The notes under the pieces: generated by a model
What the model was told of the DNA's origin: nothing
Databases searched by the model: none
What the model saw: the letters and a program-made list of their open reading frames with translations, nothing else
Source of the DNA: Bacteroidota bacterium
Lineage (GTDB): Bacteria > Bacteroidota > Bacteroidia > Chitinophagales > Saprospiraceae
Length of the DNA: 49,168 nt
Assembly (NCBI GenBank): GCA_019136675.1
Contig: JAGVTV010000162.1
Span: 4,042-53,209 of the forward strand
Reading direction: 5' to 3'
Position numbers and translations under genes: made by a program
Shown: positions 37,554-43,990 of the stretch, one piece after another
How positions within the stretch are numbered: the first letter of the stretch is position 1
Layout of the letters: each line of letters starts with the position of its first letter

Positions 37554-37561
37554 TATATTTG
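37554..37561 (+). promoter_or_regulatory. -7 promoter box of the NQR operon
   Basis: TATATTTG matches TAnnTTTG exactly, 64 nt before the nqrA ATG. No TTTG at the expected -33 distance; a T-rich ATTTTAC near 37527-37533 is the best candidate. Confidence 0.55.
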
Positions 37562-37625: not shown

Positions 37626-39248
37626 ATGAGTAAGCTGAATCTTTCCTTAAGCTTAGTGTTTTTTTCGCAAATTTTATCCGCTCAATCTACAGGTAATTCA
37701 GGAAGCAGTCTTATGACCTATGGTCTCATAGGCCTTTGTGCTTTGCTGCTGGTTTGGGCCCTTTTTGGCCTGGCATCCAATCTCCTCAAGATAGAAGCTG
37801 ACAAATACGGCCTTGATTCTGAAAAGAACAGGATCGGCATCGTGCCGGGTCTTAGTGATTTTATCACCCCGTCCAAACCTTCCTTTGCTCAAGAAGGATC
37901 TTTCCACTATCTGACAAAAGGCCATGACATCAAGCTGGAGGGTGCAGCCACCGGCGGTGTTTCCCAGGCTAATGTCACAAGATTTGCCCTCAACCCCAAA
38001 AACTTCCATGGTATGTCGCCAATTCCAAAGGTTGAGGTCGAGGTAGGTATGGAGGTAAAAGCAGGTGATCCTTTGTTTTTTGATAAAAAAAGGCCTGAGA
38101 TTCATTACGTTTCACCGGTAAGTGGCGAGGTGGTGGAGATCCGCAGGGGCGAAAAAAGGTCGATCTCAGATATCGTAATCCTTGCCGACAAGGAAATGAA
38201 ATACAGAAAACAGCATGTTCCTGACATATACAAGACCGACAGGGCAGGCATCGTATCCTTTATGCTGTCTTCAGGCCTTTGGCCACTGATAAATGAAAGG
38301 CCTTTTGACATGGTTCCTGATATAAATTCTGTACCTGTCAACATCTTCATCAGCACATTTGATACGGCCCCTCTGGCACCGGACAATAATCTTTTTGTCG
38401 AAGGTAATGAAGAAGCCTGGCAAAAAGGGCTCAGTGTCCTTGCTCTGCTTACCTCAGGCAAAGTGCACATAGGCCTGGACGCACGCGGCAAAACAGCACC
38501 AGCCAAAGCATTTACAGAATCATATAGTGTGGAAAAGCACTGGTTCAAGGGACCTCATCCGGCAGGCAATGTGGGTATTCAGATCCACCATGTAGCCCCT
38601 ATCAGGGGCCATGAAAGAGTATGGACTCTGGGAGTACAGGAAGTGGTCACCATCGGAAGAATGTTCCTTACCGGCGAATACCATGCCGACAGGGTGGTAG
38701 CCCTCACGGGAGCGGAACTCAGCAATCCTTGCTATGTAAGGACCAAACAAGGTGCCAGTATCGATGAGCTGGTTAAAAACAACCTCACGGGTGACAATGT
38801 GAGACTTGTATCAGGTGATGTACTTTCCGGCAAGCAGACAACTGCCGATGGCTTCCTCGGATTCAGGGATGATCAGATTACAGTCCTCAAGGAAGGCAAC
38901 GATTATGAACTTTTCGGCTGGCTGCTTCCTTTGGCCCCAAGGCCAAGCATCTCGGGCACCATCCCATCCTACGGCAAGGACTTCAACTTTACGGCAAATA
39001 CAAACACTCACGGCGAAAAAAGAGCCATCGTGGTTTCCGGACAGTACGAATCCGTTCTGCCTATGGATATCTATCCTCAGCATCTGGTCAAGGCCATCCT
39101 CACCAATAATATTGAAAAGATGGAAGCCCTGGGCCTCAATGAGCTGACAGAGGAAGACGTGGCACTGTGCGAGTTTGTCTGCACATCTAAAAATCCGGTC
39201 CAGGCCATCATACGTCAGGGCCTCGATGCACTCAAAGAACAATCTTAA
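37626..39248 (+). CDS. nqrA: Na+-translocating NADH:quinone reductase subunit A with membrane-anchor leader
   Basis: 540 residues, about 90 longer than the usual ~450. The NqrA body starts near residue 93 (FHYLTKGHDIKLEG) and carries the normal NqrA motifs, such as KVEVEVGMEVKAGDPLFFDK, HVAPIRGHERVW and LNPCYVRT-like LSNPCYVRT. Before it, residues 1-20 look like a signal peptide (LVFFSQILSAQ) and residues 30-52 are a transmembrane helix (TYGLIGLCALLLVWALFGLA), followed by a basic/acidic cytoplasmic linker. NqrA is a cytoplasmic peripheral subunit in Vibrio; here it would be tethered to the membrane. It opens the six-gene operon; the ATG at 37626 lies 64 nt past the -7 box. Confidence 0.93.
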   Translation: MSKLNLSLSLVFFSQILSAQSTGNSGSSLMTYGLIGLCALLLVWALFGLASNLLKIEADKYGLDSEKNRIGIVPGLSDFITPSKPSFAQEGSFHYLTKGHDIKLEGAATGGVSQANVTRFALNPKNFHGMSPIPKVEVEVGMEVKAGDPLFFDKKRPEIHYVSPVSGEVVEIRRGEKRSISDIVILADKEMKYRKQHVPDIYKTDRAGIVSFMLSSGLWPLINERPFDMVPDINSVPVNIFISTFDTAPLAPDNNLFVEGNEEAWQKGLSVLALLTSGKVHIGLDARGKTAPAKAFTESYSVEKHWFKGPHPAGNVGIQIHHVAPIRGHERVWTLGVQEVVTIGRMFLTGEYHADRVVALTGAELSNPCYVRTKQGASIDELVKNNLTGDNVRLVSGDVLSGKQTTADGFLGFRDDQITVLKEGNDYELFGWLLPLAPRPSISGTIPSYGKDFNFTANTNTHGEKRAIVVSGQYESVLPMDIYPQHLVKAILTNNIEKMEALGLNELTEEDVALCEFVCTSKNPVQAIIRQGLDALKEQS

Positions 39249-39275: not shown

Positions 39276-40526
39276 ATGGCCTTAGTAGATTTTTTTAAAA
39301 GGATAGAACCGGACAAGAAAAAAAGTCCGTTCCTGCACACGGCCTATGACGCTTTCTTCACGTTTGCATTCAGTCCAAATACAGTCACCTCTGGTGGCAC
39401 ACACATAAAGGACGGTATGGATCTGAAGAGGCTGATGGTAACCGTTGTAATCGCCATGCAGCTTTGTTATCTTTTTGGTACCTATAATATCGGACACCAG
39501 CATTTCGTGGCTGCGGGTCAGTATCTGGGATTTCTGGAAGGATTTCATCTTAAGCTTGCCCATGGCCTTATCAAATTACTGCCCATATTTGTTGTATCTC
39601 ATGTTGTAGGTCTGGGCATTGAGTTTTATTTTGCGGCTAAGAAGGGACACGCTGTGGAAGAGGGCTTCCTCGTGACAGGTGCTCTGATTCCGCTTATCAT
39701 GCCACCGGATATTCCACTGTGGATACTTGCATTTTCGATAGTTTTTGCCGTGATCATAGGTAAAGAAGCTTTTGGAGGCACAGGTATGAACATCTGGAAT
39801 ATAGCCCTGCTATCCAGGGTATTTATCTTTTTTGCTTATCCGCTCACTATCTCAGGAGACCAGATCTGGGTTTCCGGTTATAAAAAACTTACCGGAGGCA
39901 CACTTGCTGATTACGGCTGGTGGCACACCACCTTCTTTAATAAAATCTTTGACTGGATGGGCCTTTCAAAATTTGACCCCGCAACCAAAGTTATCGATGG
40001 CTTCAGCGGTGCCACTCCACTGGCCCTTGGATATGAAGGCGGATGGGAAAAGGTAACTTCCGTATTTTCAGAAAGTCAGATGATCTGGGGTACTATTCCC
40101 GGTTCCATCGGTGAGACCAGCAAGGTGCTGATTCTGGTAGGAGCCCTGATTCTTCTTGTCACAAGGGTGGCTAGCTGGCGGATCATGGCAGGTATGCTTG
40201 TAGGGTTGATCGGAACATCCTGGCTGCTTAATGCCATAGGTTCCACACCATTTATGCAAGTGACTTGGACACAGCATCTGATGATGGGGTCTTTCCTGTT
40301 TGCCATGGCATTTATGGCTACTGACCCCGTCACGGCAGCTACTACTAACCGTGGCAAATGGATCTACGGCATAATGATAGGCGTGATAGGACTGGTCATC
40401 AGGGTCATGAACCCTGCATACCCGGAAGGATGGATGCTGGCTATTTTGTTGCTAAATACCTTTGCCCCGACGATCGATTACTTTGTATTAGAGTCTAACA
40501 TTAAAAAAAGATTGAGCCGTGCATAG
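39276..40526 (+). CDS. nqrB: Na+-NQR subunit B
   Basis: 416 residues, about ten transmembrane helices. Subunit B holds a covalently bound FMN and riboflavin and is central to sodium transport. The FMN-attachment motif SGAT is at 244-247 (T247). Helices include the segments HVVGLGIEFYFAA and EEGFLVTGALIPLIMPPDIPLW, both typical of the NqrB/RnfD family. Located 27 nt after nqrA; its stop overlaps the nqrC start by 8 nt. Confidence 0.97.
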   Translation: MALVDFFKRIEPDKKKSPFLHTAYDAFFTFAFSPNTVTSGGTHIKDGMDLKRLMVTVVIAMQLCYLFGTYNIGHQHFVAAGQYLGFLEGFHLKLAHGLIKLLPIFVVSHVVGLGIEFYFAAKKGHAVEEGFLVTGALIPLIMPPDIPLWILAFSIVFAVIIGKEAFGGTGMNIWNIALLSRVFIFFAYPLTISGDQIWVSGYKKLTGGTLADYGWWHTTFFNKIFDWMGLSKFDPATKVIDGFSGATPLALGYEGGWEKVTSVFSESQMIWGTIPGSIGETSKVLILVGALILLVTRVASWRIMAGMLVGLIGTSWLLNAIGSTPFMQVTWTQHLMMGSFLFAMAFMATDPVTAATTNRGKWIYGIMIGVIGLVIRVMNPAYPEGWMLAILLLNTFAPTIDYFVLESNIKKRLSRA

Positions 40527-41289
40527 TACAGGATATATTATCAGATTTACCATTGTCATGACTGTCATCGTAGCCTTCGTGCTGGCCTTGATGGTGTCAG
40601 GACTTAAGCCCATTCATACTGAGAATGAGGAGGTATATAACAAAAAAGGCATACTTTCCGCGGTAGCAGAGCAACTCGGCAAAGATATCAATACAATGTC
40701 AAATAAGGAGGTGCAAGAAGTGTTTTCATCGCAGATAGAGCAAAAGGTGGTCAATTCAAAAGGTGAAGAACTCACCCCTGACCAAATCAAGGCGGCGACT
40801 GACGGTGCTGCAGATAAAGCTGAAGATCTGGACCTTTCCAAGGAATCAAAAAAGCCGGAAGGCGAAAAACTTTTGCCCGTCTACACCTTTAAAGGTAAAG
40901 ACAATAAGATGTACAATATTCTGTATGTTAGAGGCAAAGGACTGTGGGACGAAATTTGGGGTTATATCACCCTCGATTCAGACTGGAACACTATTGCCGG
41001 CGAAGCCTTTGACCACAAGGGCGAGACACCGGGTCTGGGTGCCGAGATCAAGGAAAACAAGGCTTGGTATACACAGTTTACCGGCAAAAAGCTCTATGAC
41101 CAGTCCGGTGCGTACAAGTCAGTCGCCGTGGTCAAGGGAGGAGTAAAGATTCCTGATCATCAGGTCGATGCCATCTCAGGGGCGACCATCACCGGAAATG
41201 GTGTAGATGAGATGCTTGAAAGAGGGCTTAAGTATTATGAAGCCTACATTCAAAAAAATAAAAAATCAGTTCAAGAAGTAAAACAATAA
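40519..41289 (+). CDS. nqrC: Na+-NQR subunit C
   Basis: 256 residues from a GTG at 40519. The GTG is preferred because it provides the complete N-terminal helix ([19 protein letters not shown]) followed by the family motif SGLKP; an internal ATG would cut this helix. A periplasmic flavodoxin-like domain carries covalent FMN at T223 in the motif ISGATITG (220-223 SGAT). Overlaps nqrB by 8 nt and is 2 nt from nqrD. Confidence 0.95.
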
Positions 41290-41291
41290 AA

Positions 41292-41993
41292 ATGGCTGAA
41301 GTACAGGACTTAATCAAAAAAGAGCCGTCAGCATTTTCTTTTGGCAAGTCCGAAAGAAAACTGATCACAGACCCCATCAACGACAACAATCCGGTTACAG
41401 TTCAGATCCTGGGTGTTTGTTCGGCACTGGCGGTCACTACCCTATTGACCAAAGCAATCGTAATGGGTATAGCAGTAACCCTGGTGACTGCTTTTTCAAA
41501 TATGTTTACGGCCATGCTGAGGGACTATATTCCCAAATCCATAAGGATGATCGTACAGCTCGTTATCATCGCCTTTCTGGTGACGGTAGTAGAGCTCGCC
41601 CTCAAGGCGGTCAATTATCCCATCTGGAAGGAATTGTCGGTATTCATAGGTCTGATTATTACTAACTGTATCCTTATGGGAAGACTTGAGGCATTTGCCA
41701 TGTCCAACAATCCATGGAGGTCCTTTCTCGACGGTATAGGAAACGGCCTCGGATACTCAGCAATTTTGATCATTGTAGCTGCTGTCAGGGAACTTTTTGG
41801 CAAGGGATCTCTTCTGGGTTTCAAGATAATCGGGCCTTCTGCCGAATATGTGCTAAACACAAACTCTATAAGTTGGCTAAACTGGTACACTCCCAATAAC
41901 CTCGTTATCCTGTCTCCGGCAGCCATGTTTCTTGTGGCCATTATTATATGGCTGCAAAGGGCCAAAAACAGAAAATTAATAGATATTTCCTAA
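41292..41993 (+). CDS. nqrD: Na+-NQR subunit D
   Basis: 233 residues with six transmembrane helices. The cysteines that, with NqrE, hold the intramembrane iron centre in Vibrio have matches here at C43 ([10 protein letters not shown]) and C126 ([10 protein letters not shown]). The N-terminus is ~14 residues longer than in Vibrio. Sits between nqrC (2 nt) and nqrE (20 nt). Confidence 0.97.
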
Positions 41994-42013: not shown

Positions 42014-42619
42014 ATGGGTGACGTTATAAATATATTCATCAAATCCGCATTCATTGAAAATATGGCCTTGTCGTATTTTCTCGGGATGTGTTCTTTCCTT
42101 GCTGTTTCCAAGAGTGTGAAGACGGCCCTCGGACTGGGTGTCGCAGTTGTGTTTGTGCAGGGTCTTACGATTCCCATGAACTGGCTGATTGACTATTATC
42201 TGCTGGGCGAAAACGGCATCTTTGGCATGGATCTGACCTTCCTCAGGTTTATCATCTTTATTTCAACCATTGCAGCCCTTGTGCAGCTGGTGGAAATGGT
42301 AGTGGAGAAGTTTTCACCGTCCCTCTACAATTCCCTGGGTATCTTCCTGCCGCTGATCACTGTTAACTGTGCGATCCTCGGTGCATCACTCTTTATGATC
42401 ACAAAGGAATACAATTTTGCAGAATCAGTATCCTTCGGTCTTGGAGGCGGAGTGGGATGGGCACTTGCGATAGTAGCAATAGCCGGCATCAGAGAAAAAA
42501 TGGCCTATTCCATCATCCCTGCTCCTTTAAGGGGTCTGGGTATGGCATTTATCCTCACCGGACTAATGGGCATCGCCTTCATGGGCCTGATGGGAATAGA
42601 CCCGGCTGCATTTAAATAA
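42014..42619 (+). CDS. nqrE: Na+-NQR subunit E
   Basis: 201 residues, six transmembrane helices. Iron-centre cysteines are C26 ([10 protein letters not shown]) and C119 ([10 protein letters not shown]), in mirror topology to NqrD. Length and motifs are canonical. Lies 20 nt after nqrD and 21 nt before nqrF. Confidence 0.97.
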
Positions 42620-42640: not shown

Positions 42641-43990
42641 ATGAATCTTATGATACTTTTGGCATGGATGTCGGTTATTATGGCAGTATTGGTATTTACC
42701 GCTGTCATCCTCGGCTTGTCATACATGCTCATATATGCACGTAAAAAGCTCGTGGCACAGGGCGATGTCAAAATCGTGATCAACCATGATGACGAACATC
42801 CTATTACTGTGTCTCCGGGTTCTTCGCTTCTTTCCACCCTTGCCGACAGGAACATCTTCCTGCCCTCAGCCTGTGGAGGTGGAGGTACCTGTGCCATGTG
42901 TGAATGTCATGTGTATGAGGGCGGTGGAGATATTTTGCCTACAGAATTAAACCACATCACACGCAAGGAAGCCAAGGATGGCATGAGGCTTGCCTGCCAG
43001 GTCAAGGTTAGGCAGGACATGAAGATAGGCATTCCGGAAGAGATTTTCGGCATCAAAAAGTGGGAGTGCGAGGTAATCTCAAACTACAACGTAGCCACCT
43101 ATATAAAGGAATTTATCGTAAGGCTGCCTCCGGGCGAAACGCTGGATTTCCAGGCAGGTGGATATATCCAGATAGATGTACCGCCGTGCACGGTGGATTA
43201 CAAGGATATCGACATTACGGCCCACCCCAAGTATCACGACAGACCTGACAAGTTTCAGTCTGACTGGGATCAGTACAAACTGTGGGGCCTCAGGATGGTA
43301 AACGAAGAGCCTATTTTCAGGGCGTACTCTATGTCAAACCACCCTGCTGAGGGCAACATAGTATCCCTTACTATCAGGATAGCCACCCCGCCATTCAAGT
43401 TTAAGACCGGCCCTGACGGCAAAAGGCAGTGGGACGGCTACGAACCGGTAAATCCGGGTATATGCTCATCTTATGTGTTTTCGCGTAAGCCAGGTGATAA
43501 AGTAACCATTTCCGGTCCTTACGGCGAATTTTTTATCAAACCCACACAGGCTGAGATGCTTTACATAGGCGGTGGTGCCGGAATGGCTCCCATGAGGTCT
43601 CACCTGTACCACCTGTTTCATACACTGAAGACCGGCAGGAAAGTAACCTTCTTCTACGGTGGTCGTACCAGGAAAGAACTTTTTTATATCGAGGAATTCA
43701 GGGAAATAGAAAAGCAGTTTCCTAATTTCAGGTTTGTGGTAGCCCTTGATAACCCGCTGCCGGAAGATAACTGGACCCTTAAAAAGGATATCAATGACCC
43801 CGAGGGTGACGGTTTCAAAGGCTTTGTGCACAATGTCGTCATCGAGCAGTACCTGAGCAAGCACCCTGCACCTGAAGAAGTGGAACTGTATTTCTGCGGT
43901 CCTCCGATGATGAACCAGTCCGTACTTAAGATGGCGGATGACTGGGGAATTCCAAAAGAAAACGTATCATTTGACGATTTTGGAGGGTAA
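42641..43990 (+). CDS. nqrF: Na+-NQR subunit F, NADH-oxidising subunit
   Basis: 449 residues. One N-terminal helix (about 6-33) anchors it; then a 2Fe-2S ferredoxin domain with C78, C84, C87 and C119 ([15 protein letters not shown]); then an FAD domain (RAYSMSNHP) and an NADH domain ([20 protein letters not shown]). It takes hydride from NADH and passes electrons to the sodium-pumping subunits. A full-length last gene of the operon, followed by a terminator. Confidence 0.98.

Follow-up and report, generated by a model that had tools for sequence, protein, structure and literature searches.

A probable N-terminal membrane anchor on the NqrA subunit of Na+-NQR in Saprospiraceae

In the portions of the Na+-NQR papers available to us, the role of the NqrA subunit is called unsettled and the protein is described as having no transmembrane (TM) helices. 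In the excerpts that concern Vibrio, the protein is held in place by its own C-terminal loop and the N-terminus of NqrB, and NqrF binds a basic patch on it (PMC9325719, PMC10643135). The nqrA gene in the window analyzed here (a 49,168-nucleotide stretch of DNA from a member of the Saprospiraceae, a family with marine and sludge members, taken at its full length) poses the question of why such a protein should begin with 92 additional residues that resemble a signal peptide followed by a TM helix. An earlier note on this DNA had suggested that the leader tethers NqrA to the membrane and either adds a contact in the pump or replaces a docking surface. We propose that it is very probably a real, translated, lineage-specific anchor that tethers NqrA and adds a TM helix, with the segment next to the membrane as the likely site of a specific contact. 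The gene and its parts, whose coordinates, frame, and body start at residue 93 agree with those given in the earlier note, are as follows.

37554..37561, + strand: candidate Bacteroidota -7 element TATATTTG, 72 nt upstream of the nqrA ATG (putative)
37626..39248, + strand: nqrA open reading frame, 540 aa including the 92-residue in-frame leader
37626..37682, + strand: signal peptide, residues 1-19, cleavage predicted between A19 and Q20
37683..37712, + strand: short periplasmic stub (predicted), residues 20-29, with no charged residue in the window NqrA
37713..37775, + strand: TM helix, residues 30-50 or thereabouts, predicted N-out/C-in from hydropathy, AlphaFold2, and charges
37776..37817, + strand: conserved, charged, cytoplasmic juxtamembrane segment (predicted), residues 51-64, family consensus DNLLxIEAKxxGxD
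37818..37901, + strand: linker, residues 65-92; P74 and P85 are conserved, and AlphaFold2 confidence is low in 61-80
37902..39248, + strand: ordinary NqrA body, residues 93-540, and stop codon, from profile matches

The assignment of the body to the NqrA family is sound. It scores 444.3 bits against TIGR01936 (cut-off, 321.05; model positions 4 to 443 of 446) and 494.9 bits against NF003761 (cut-off, 450); these NCBIfam models align only from residue 96 or 97 onward, and the Pfam NQRA_N model from residue 96. The gene heads a complete nqrABCDEF operon, in which NqrB, NqrC, NqrD, NqrE, and NqrF each score above a TIGR cut-off and follow in order.

39276..40526, + strand: nqrB, with its N-terminal NqrA-docking stretch kept
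40519..41289, + strand: nqrC, profile match
41292..41993, + strand: nqrD, profile match
42014..42619, + strand: nqrE, profile match
42641..43990, + strand: nqrF, profile match

The resemblance to Vibrio cholerae NqrA (PDB 7XK3, 8A1U) extends to this six-gene arrangement and to the fold of the body, the AlphaFold2 model of which fits 7xk3_A with a TM-score of 0.91 by target length and 36% identity in the structural alignment. The surfaces that face the other subunits are likewise shared. The membrane-inserted C-terminal segment (LFGWxxP) reads LFGWLLP here and LFGWAMP in Vibrio, and most of the basic residues that face NqrF are kept, with K154, K155, K177, and R178 standing for Vibrio K61, K62, K84, and R85 (counted by eye on the alignment) and Ser131 in the position of Vibrio Arg40 as the sole exception named; the N-terminal docking stretch of NqrB is also retained. 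Replacement of a docking surface, one of the two roles suggested for the leader, is thus rejected as unsupported; with the features that dock to NqrB and NqrF in place, the leader is an added attachment rather than a substitute. From prediction and comparison, the window protein departs from the NqrA of Vibrio, as the available parts of the papers describe it, in a single property: the Vibrio protein is soluble and has no TM helix, whereas the window NqrA adds a signal peptide and an N-out TM helix.

To characterize the leader, we assembled 202 nqrA loci, from which we set aside four (L022 and L028, cut by contig ends; L029, masked; and L030, a fragment from the L022 genome) and then 25 near-copies (≥95%) among the remaining 198. 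The resulting 173 rows, classified by reading the translated leaders (with the starts of L084 and L085 uncertain), comprise 102 with signal peptide and TM helix, 12 with the TM helix only, 2 with divergent leaders, and 57 without a leader; hence, 116 non-redundant rows show leader features. The first 19 residues have the hallmarks of a type I Sec signal peptide as far as sequence features go, namely, a basic n-region (with K or R in 99 of 101 placed rows), a hydrophobic core, and an AXA-type site (in 101 of the 102 rows with signal peptide and TM helix, using a loose pattern), with no lipobox Cys at the window site. A signal peptide had already been proposed in the earlier note and is borne out; its span, then given as residues 1-20, is better drawn as 1-19, since the best cleavage site judged from sequence features falls after A19 (LSA/QST), with A19 kept in 84% and Q20 in 94% of the alignment rows filled there. 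The TM segment has a mean hydropathy of 2.83 (minimum, 1.67) over the same 102 rows.

The distribution of charges around this segment shows the positive-inside asymmetry expected of a single-pass N-out/C-in anchor. In the rows with both elements, the mean number of K and R is 2.65 in the 20 positions following the TM helix versus 0.13 in the N-side stub, and the C-side excess is seen in 99 of 101 placed rows and reversed in none (L065 is unplaceable and was omitted from the count). The TM-only rows behave alike (2.67 versus 0; C-side excess in 12 of 12, none reversed). The predicted orientation is therefore N-out/C-in with or without the signal peptide, which would leave the NqrA body in the cytoplasm. 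A monomer-only AlphaFold2 model from 34 sequences (mean pLDDT, 82.2) has a helix at 2-19, one continuous helix at 27-60, a weakly predicted linker, and a good body; confidence in the leader is moderate, with block means of 53 to 79. Taken together, the charge pattern, the conservation of the leader, and the modeled helix support the suggested tethering of NqrA by a signal peptide and an N-out/C-in helix.

Conservation is unevenly distributed along the leader. Across 103 leader rows (a set that excludes the 2 divergent leaders and 11 carriers from outside Saprospiraceae), the signal peptide averages 1.68 bits, the TM helix 2.07, juxtamembrane residues 51-64 2.46, the linker 1.77, and the start of the body 2.43, so that the juxtamembrane segment is conserved on par with the body start; within the linker, P74 is near-invariant. 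A conserved face of the TM helix was sought in these 103 rows and none was found (moment, 0.024 versus a shuffle mean of 0.092; p = 0.95), leaving specific packing of the helix in the complex unsupported. This combination suggests that the TM helix serves as a general anchor and that the contact is made by the juxtamembrane motif. The new contact in the pump proposed earlier is thus plausible in view of the conserved juxtamembrane motif, with no sign of it in the faceless TM helix.

The leader is a feature of the Saprospiraceae and of some families in the same order. In the order-wide sample, NqrA was detected in 92 of 248 genomes, 55 of them Saprospiraceae, and 52 of these 55 have the leader (for 6 of the 52, G102, G152, G215, G239, G249, and G265, this is read solely from where the alignment starts and how long the open frame is), the exceptions being G203, G225, and G233. 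Elsewhere in the order it occurs in families f5, f10, f13, f18, f21, and f22; among the stretches read, it is absent from f2, f6, f9, f11, f12, f14, and f17. In the class sample, at least 150 of 395 genomes match NqrA, and the leader is present in all 6 Saprospiraceae and, among the matches listed, in none of the other 144 genomes; reading of eight stretches, chiefly those with long open frames, showed no TM leader, and the others were assessed from the start of the alignment and the length of the frame. Of 395 genomes sampled across the phylum, 67 score above the cut-off, 6 of them Saprospiraceae; the open frames of the remainder do not exceed 495 aa except in G597 (580 aa), the upstream frame of which holds no such leader. 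The leader is thus conserved among close relatives, where its absence had been named in the earlier note as a refutation, and it is kept in five congeners of the window genome. Cultured carriers include Phaeodactylibacter xiamenensis, Neolewinella xylanilytica, and Membranihabitans. NqrA itself has no match in three of nine window congeners (G003, G005, and G009; completeness, 97 to 100%), indicating that the pump is not universal even in this genus.

On the tree of the 173 NqrA bodies, presence and absence of the leader need four changes. An AU test does not reject the grouping of leader-bearing rows in a single clade (p-AU = 0.76 on 70 of the 173 rows, hand-chosen and without L061; the constrained tree lies 16.7 log units above the free search), making one origin possible, though not proven. 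The TM-only state needs five changes, four of which are forced by starred branches, and it appears from these placements that the signal peptide was lost at least four times with the TM helix retained. This repeated loss, along with the charge pattern, suggests that the retained unit is the N-out anchor. The three exceptions in the family seem to have different histories. G203 is, judging from its operon, a true loss: the rest of the operon is intact and resembles that of its congener G186, and the leader is hence dispensable rather than essential. In G225 and G233, the leaderless NqrA groups with another family (99*), and the remainder of the G225 operon is also divergent; the simplest explanation is that the gene was replaced by transfer.

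Could the leader instead be an artifact of a wrong start, with translation beginning somewhere near the body, for example at GTG codon 73? In other Bacteroidota, NqrA does start near the body, and the GTG at codon 73 is the sole alternative start codon between the TM helix and the body of the window gene, with zero ATG codons from the TM helix (codon 30) to codon 130. The codon 73 column, however, is variable, with Phe its commonest residue (54%), and signal-peptide and TM features recur across the 116 rows. Differences in the leader from the five congeners are dominated by third codon positions (changes at positions 1/2/3 of 18/10/48, 35/17/63, 41/22/60, 39/24/59, and 38/19/62); we rely on these counts rather than on ratios because synonymous sites are near saturation. 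With pN at 0.14 to 0.34 in the leader versus 0.11 to 0.26 in the body, the codon comparison clearly points to a constrained protein-coding frame that evolves faster than the body. Finally, the candidate -7 element at 37554 stands upstream of the long start, as the claim that its ATG fits a promoter would have it. Its motif resembles TAnnTTTG, the Bacteroidota-type -7 consensus, and is expected 0.21 times by base composition in the stretch upstream of the ATG. The start-codon survey, which revealed no start near the body that would undo the leader, and these other observations reduce a mis-called start to a negligible probability. Export of NqrA, or the splitting off of the leader as a separate small membrane protein, fares only slightly better: a signal peptide is present and the modeled linker is probably flexible, but behind the signal peptide lies a TM helix with charges on its cytoplasmic side, the residues that face NqrF and NqrB are retained, and no separate small ORF of the signal-peptide-plus-TM type lies upstream of the leaderless nqrA of G203. 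We therefore consider it highly improbable.

Two further readings accept the leader as translated and differ from ours in what it does. One is that it serves translation only: by steering the first subunit to SRP/Sec while still nascent, it would have the operon translated at the membrane, and it would play no role in the finished pump. The position of nqrA as the first gene, the freely varying TM residues, and the repeated loss of the signal peptide would all suit such targeting, which has no need, however, for a conserved cytoplasmic 51-64 motif or a near-invariant P74; we regard it as unlikely. The other is that the TM helix, together with the juxtamembrane segment, occupies a defined docking site, a new intersubunit contact that affects coupling or quinone access. 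The juxtamembrane conservation argues for this, and, going by the available parts of the Vibrio descriptions, the TM helix would reach the cytoplasm near the point where NqrA and the N-terminus of NqrB meet. Against it stand the lack of a conserved TM face and the viable loss in G203; leader-bearing rows do have a longer NqrB (median, 422 versus 400) and NqrD (236 versus 214), but these differences follow phylogeny and prove nothing. Defined docking is, in our judgment, a tentative possibility that is a little less doubtful than pure targeting.

Under the preferred reading, in which the leader is a tethering anchor, the signal peptide would open the Sec channel and then be removed, leaving the short polar stub in the periplasm, and the TM helix would stop transfer and insert N-out/C-in. 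The body would stay in the cytoplasm, placed normally on NqrB and NqrF as the retained interfaces suggest. The anchor would hold NqrA at the membrane and aid its delivery to and retention beside NqrB, to the benefit of assembly or stability, with the juxtamembrane segment, rather than the TM helix, likely making the specific contact. The Saprospiraceae pump would probably exceed the textbook version by one membrane helix, a 25th in addition to the 24 of the Vibrio cholerae complex. Any effect on pumping is probably modest, because one lineage has lost the leader. That NqrA supplies this 25th helix and that its juxtamembrane motif touches NqrB, NqrF, or some respiratory partner in a lineage-specific way, thereby altering assembly, quinone access, or supercomplex formation, is a speculation that we rate as rather doubtful. 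The presence of anchored NqrA, TM-only forms, and a natural loss in one clade offers a ready experiment on how the attachment of NqrA serves the pump, and models built on the Vibrio template would miss one helix in Saprospiraceae.

Parallels to the leader are suggested by several other proteins. The closest non-NqrA match of its profile is a small CcmD-like Bacteroidota protein (L213:2945-3217, - strand; E = 0.002). In this protein, too, a single TM helix comes immediately after the signal peptide; however, only profile positions 5-52 (signal peptide and TM helix) are aligned and the juxtamembrane motif is unmatched. We discounted homology, the E value being too weak and possibly reflecting the common composition of such segments. 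Nor was an origin of the leader from a known domain apparent: a Pfam search with 34 leaders recovered no described family (best E = 0.0011, each family being hit by at most 5 of the 34), and the best PDB match has an E value of 0.44. Within the pump, NqrC and NqrF likewise anchor a hydrophilic domain by one N-terminal TM helix but, in the portions of the papers available, without mention of a signal peptide, and, within the same clade, conservation is higher in their TM columns (2.74 and 2.55 bits in 39 and 30 rows, respectively) than in those of the NqrA leader (2.07 bits in 103 rows). RnfC, the RNF homologue of NqrA, shares its fold (structure matches 8rbq_C and 7zc6_C). In the available part of its description, RnfC binds FMN and 4Fe-4S clusters, and the Azotobacter version has a C-terminal helix, with no mention of an N-terminal TM leader (PMC12174285). 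As far as the accessible text of the open-licence literature searched goes, we found no description of such a leader on NqrA, the Na+-NQR, or RnfC, and it is apparently undescribed there.

Several additional observations accompany this survey. NqrM was found in 0 of 20 genomes, and the control was likewise found in none, which makes the zero uninformative. In 60 of the 116 leader-bearing rows, all from genomes other than that of the window, ATG codons lie between the TM helix and the first codons of the body, and a second, leaderless NqrA product may be made in those genomes. In many leader-bearing nqrA genes, TTG at a conserved position is apparently the start codon (L127, L133, L135, L153, L163, L169, L177, and others). 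The divergent leaders of L069 and L189 (from G140 and a Saprospiraceae MAG) contain two hydrophobic stretches and are joined to the body by a very short linker. L190, from a record titled Acidobacteria bacterium isolate p16x34bins.10, encodes a leaderless NqrA that lies beside the Saprospiraceae clade in trees, which reflects either a mislabeled bin or transfer. In five genomes of one genus, two of which were read, the match to the window NqrA is split in two. In L228 and L229 (from G692 and G849, which belong to family f86 in the class of the window genome), the second domain of NqrA contains an internal insertion of several dozen residues.
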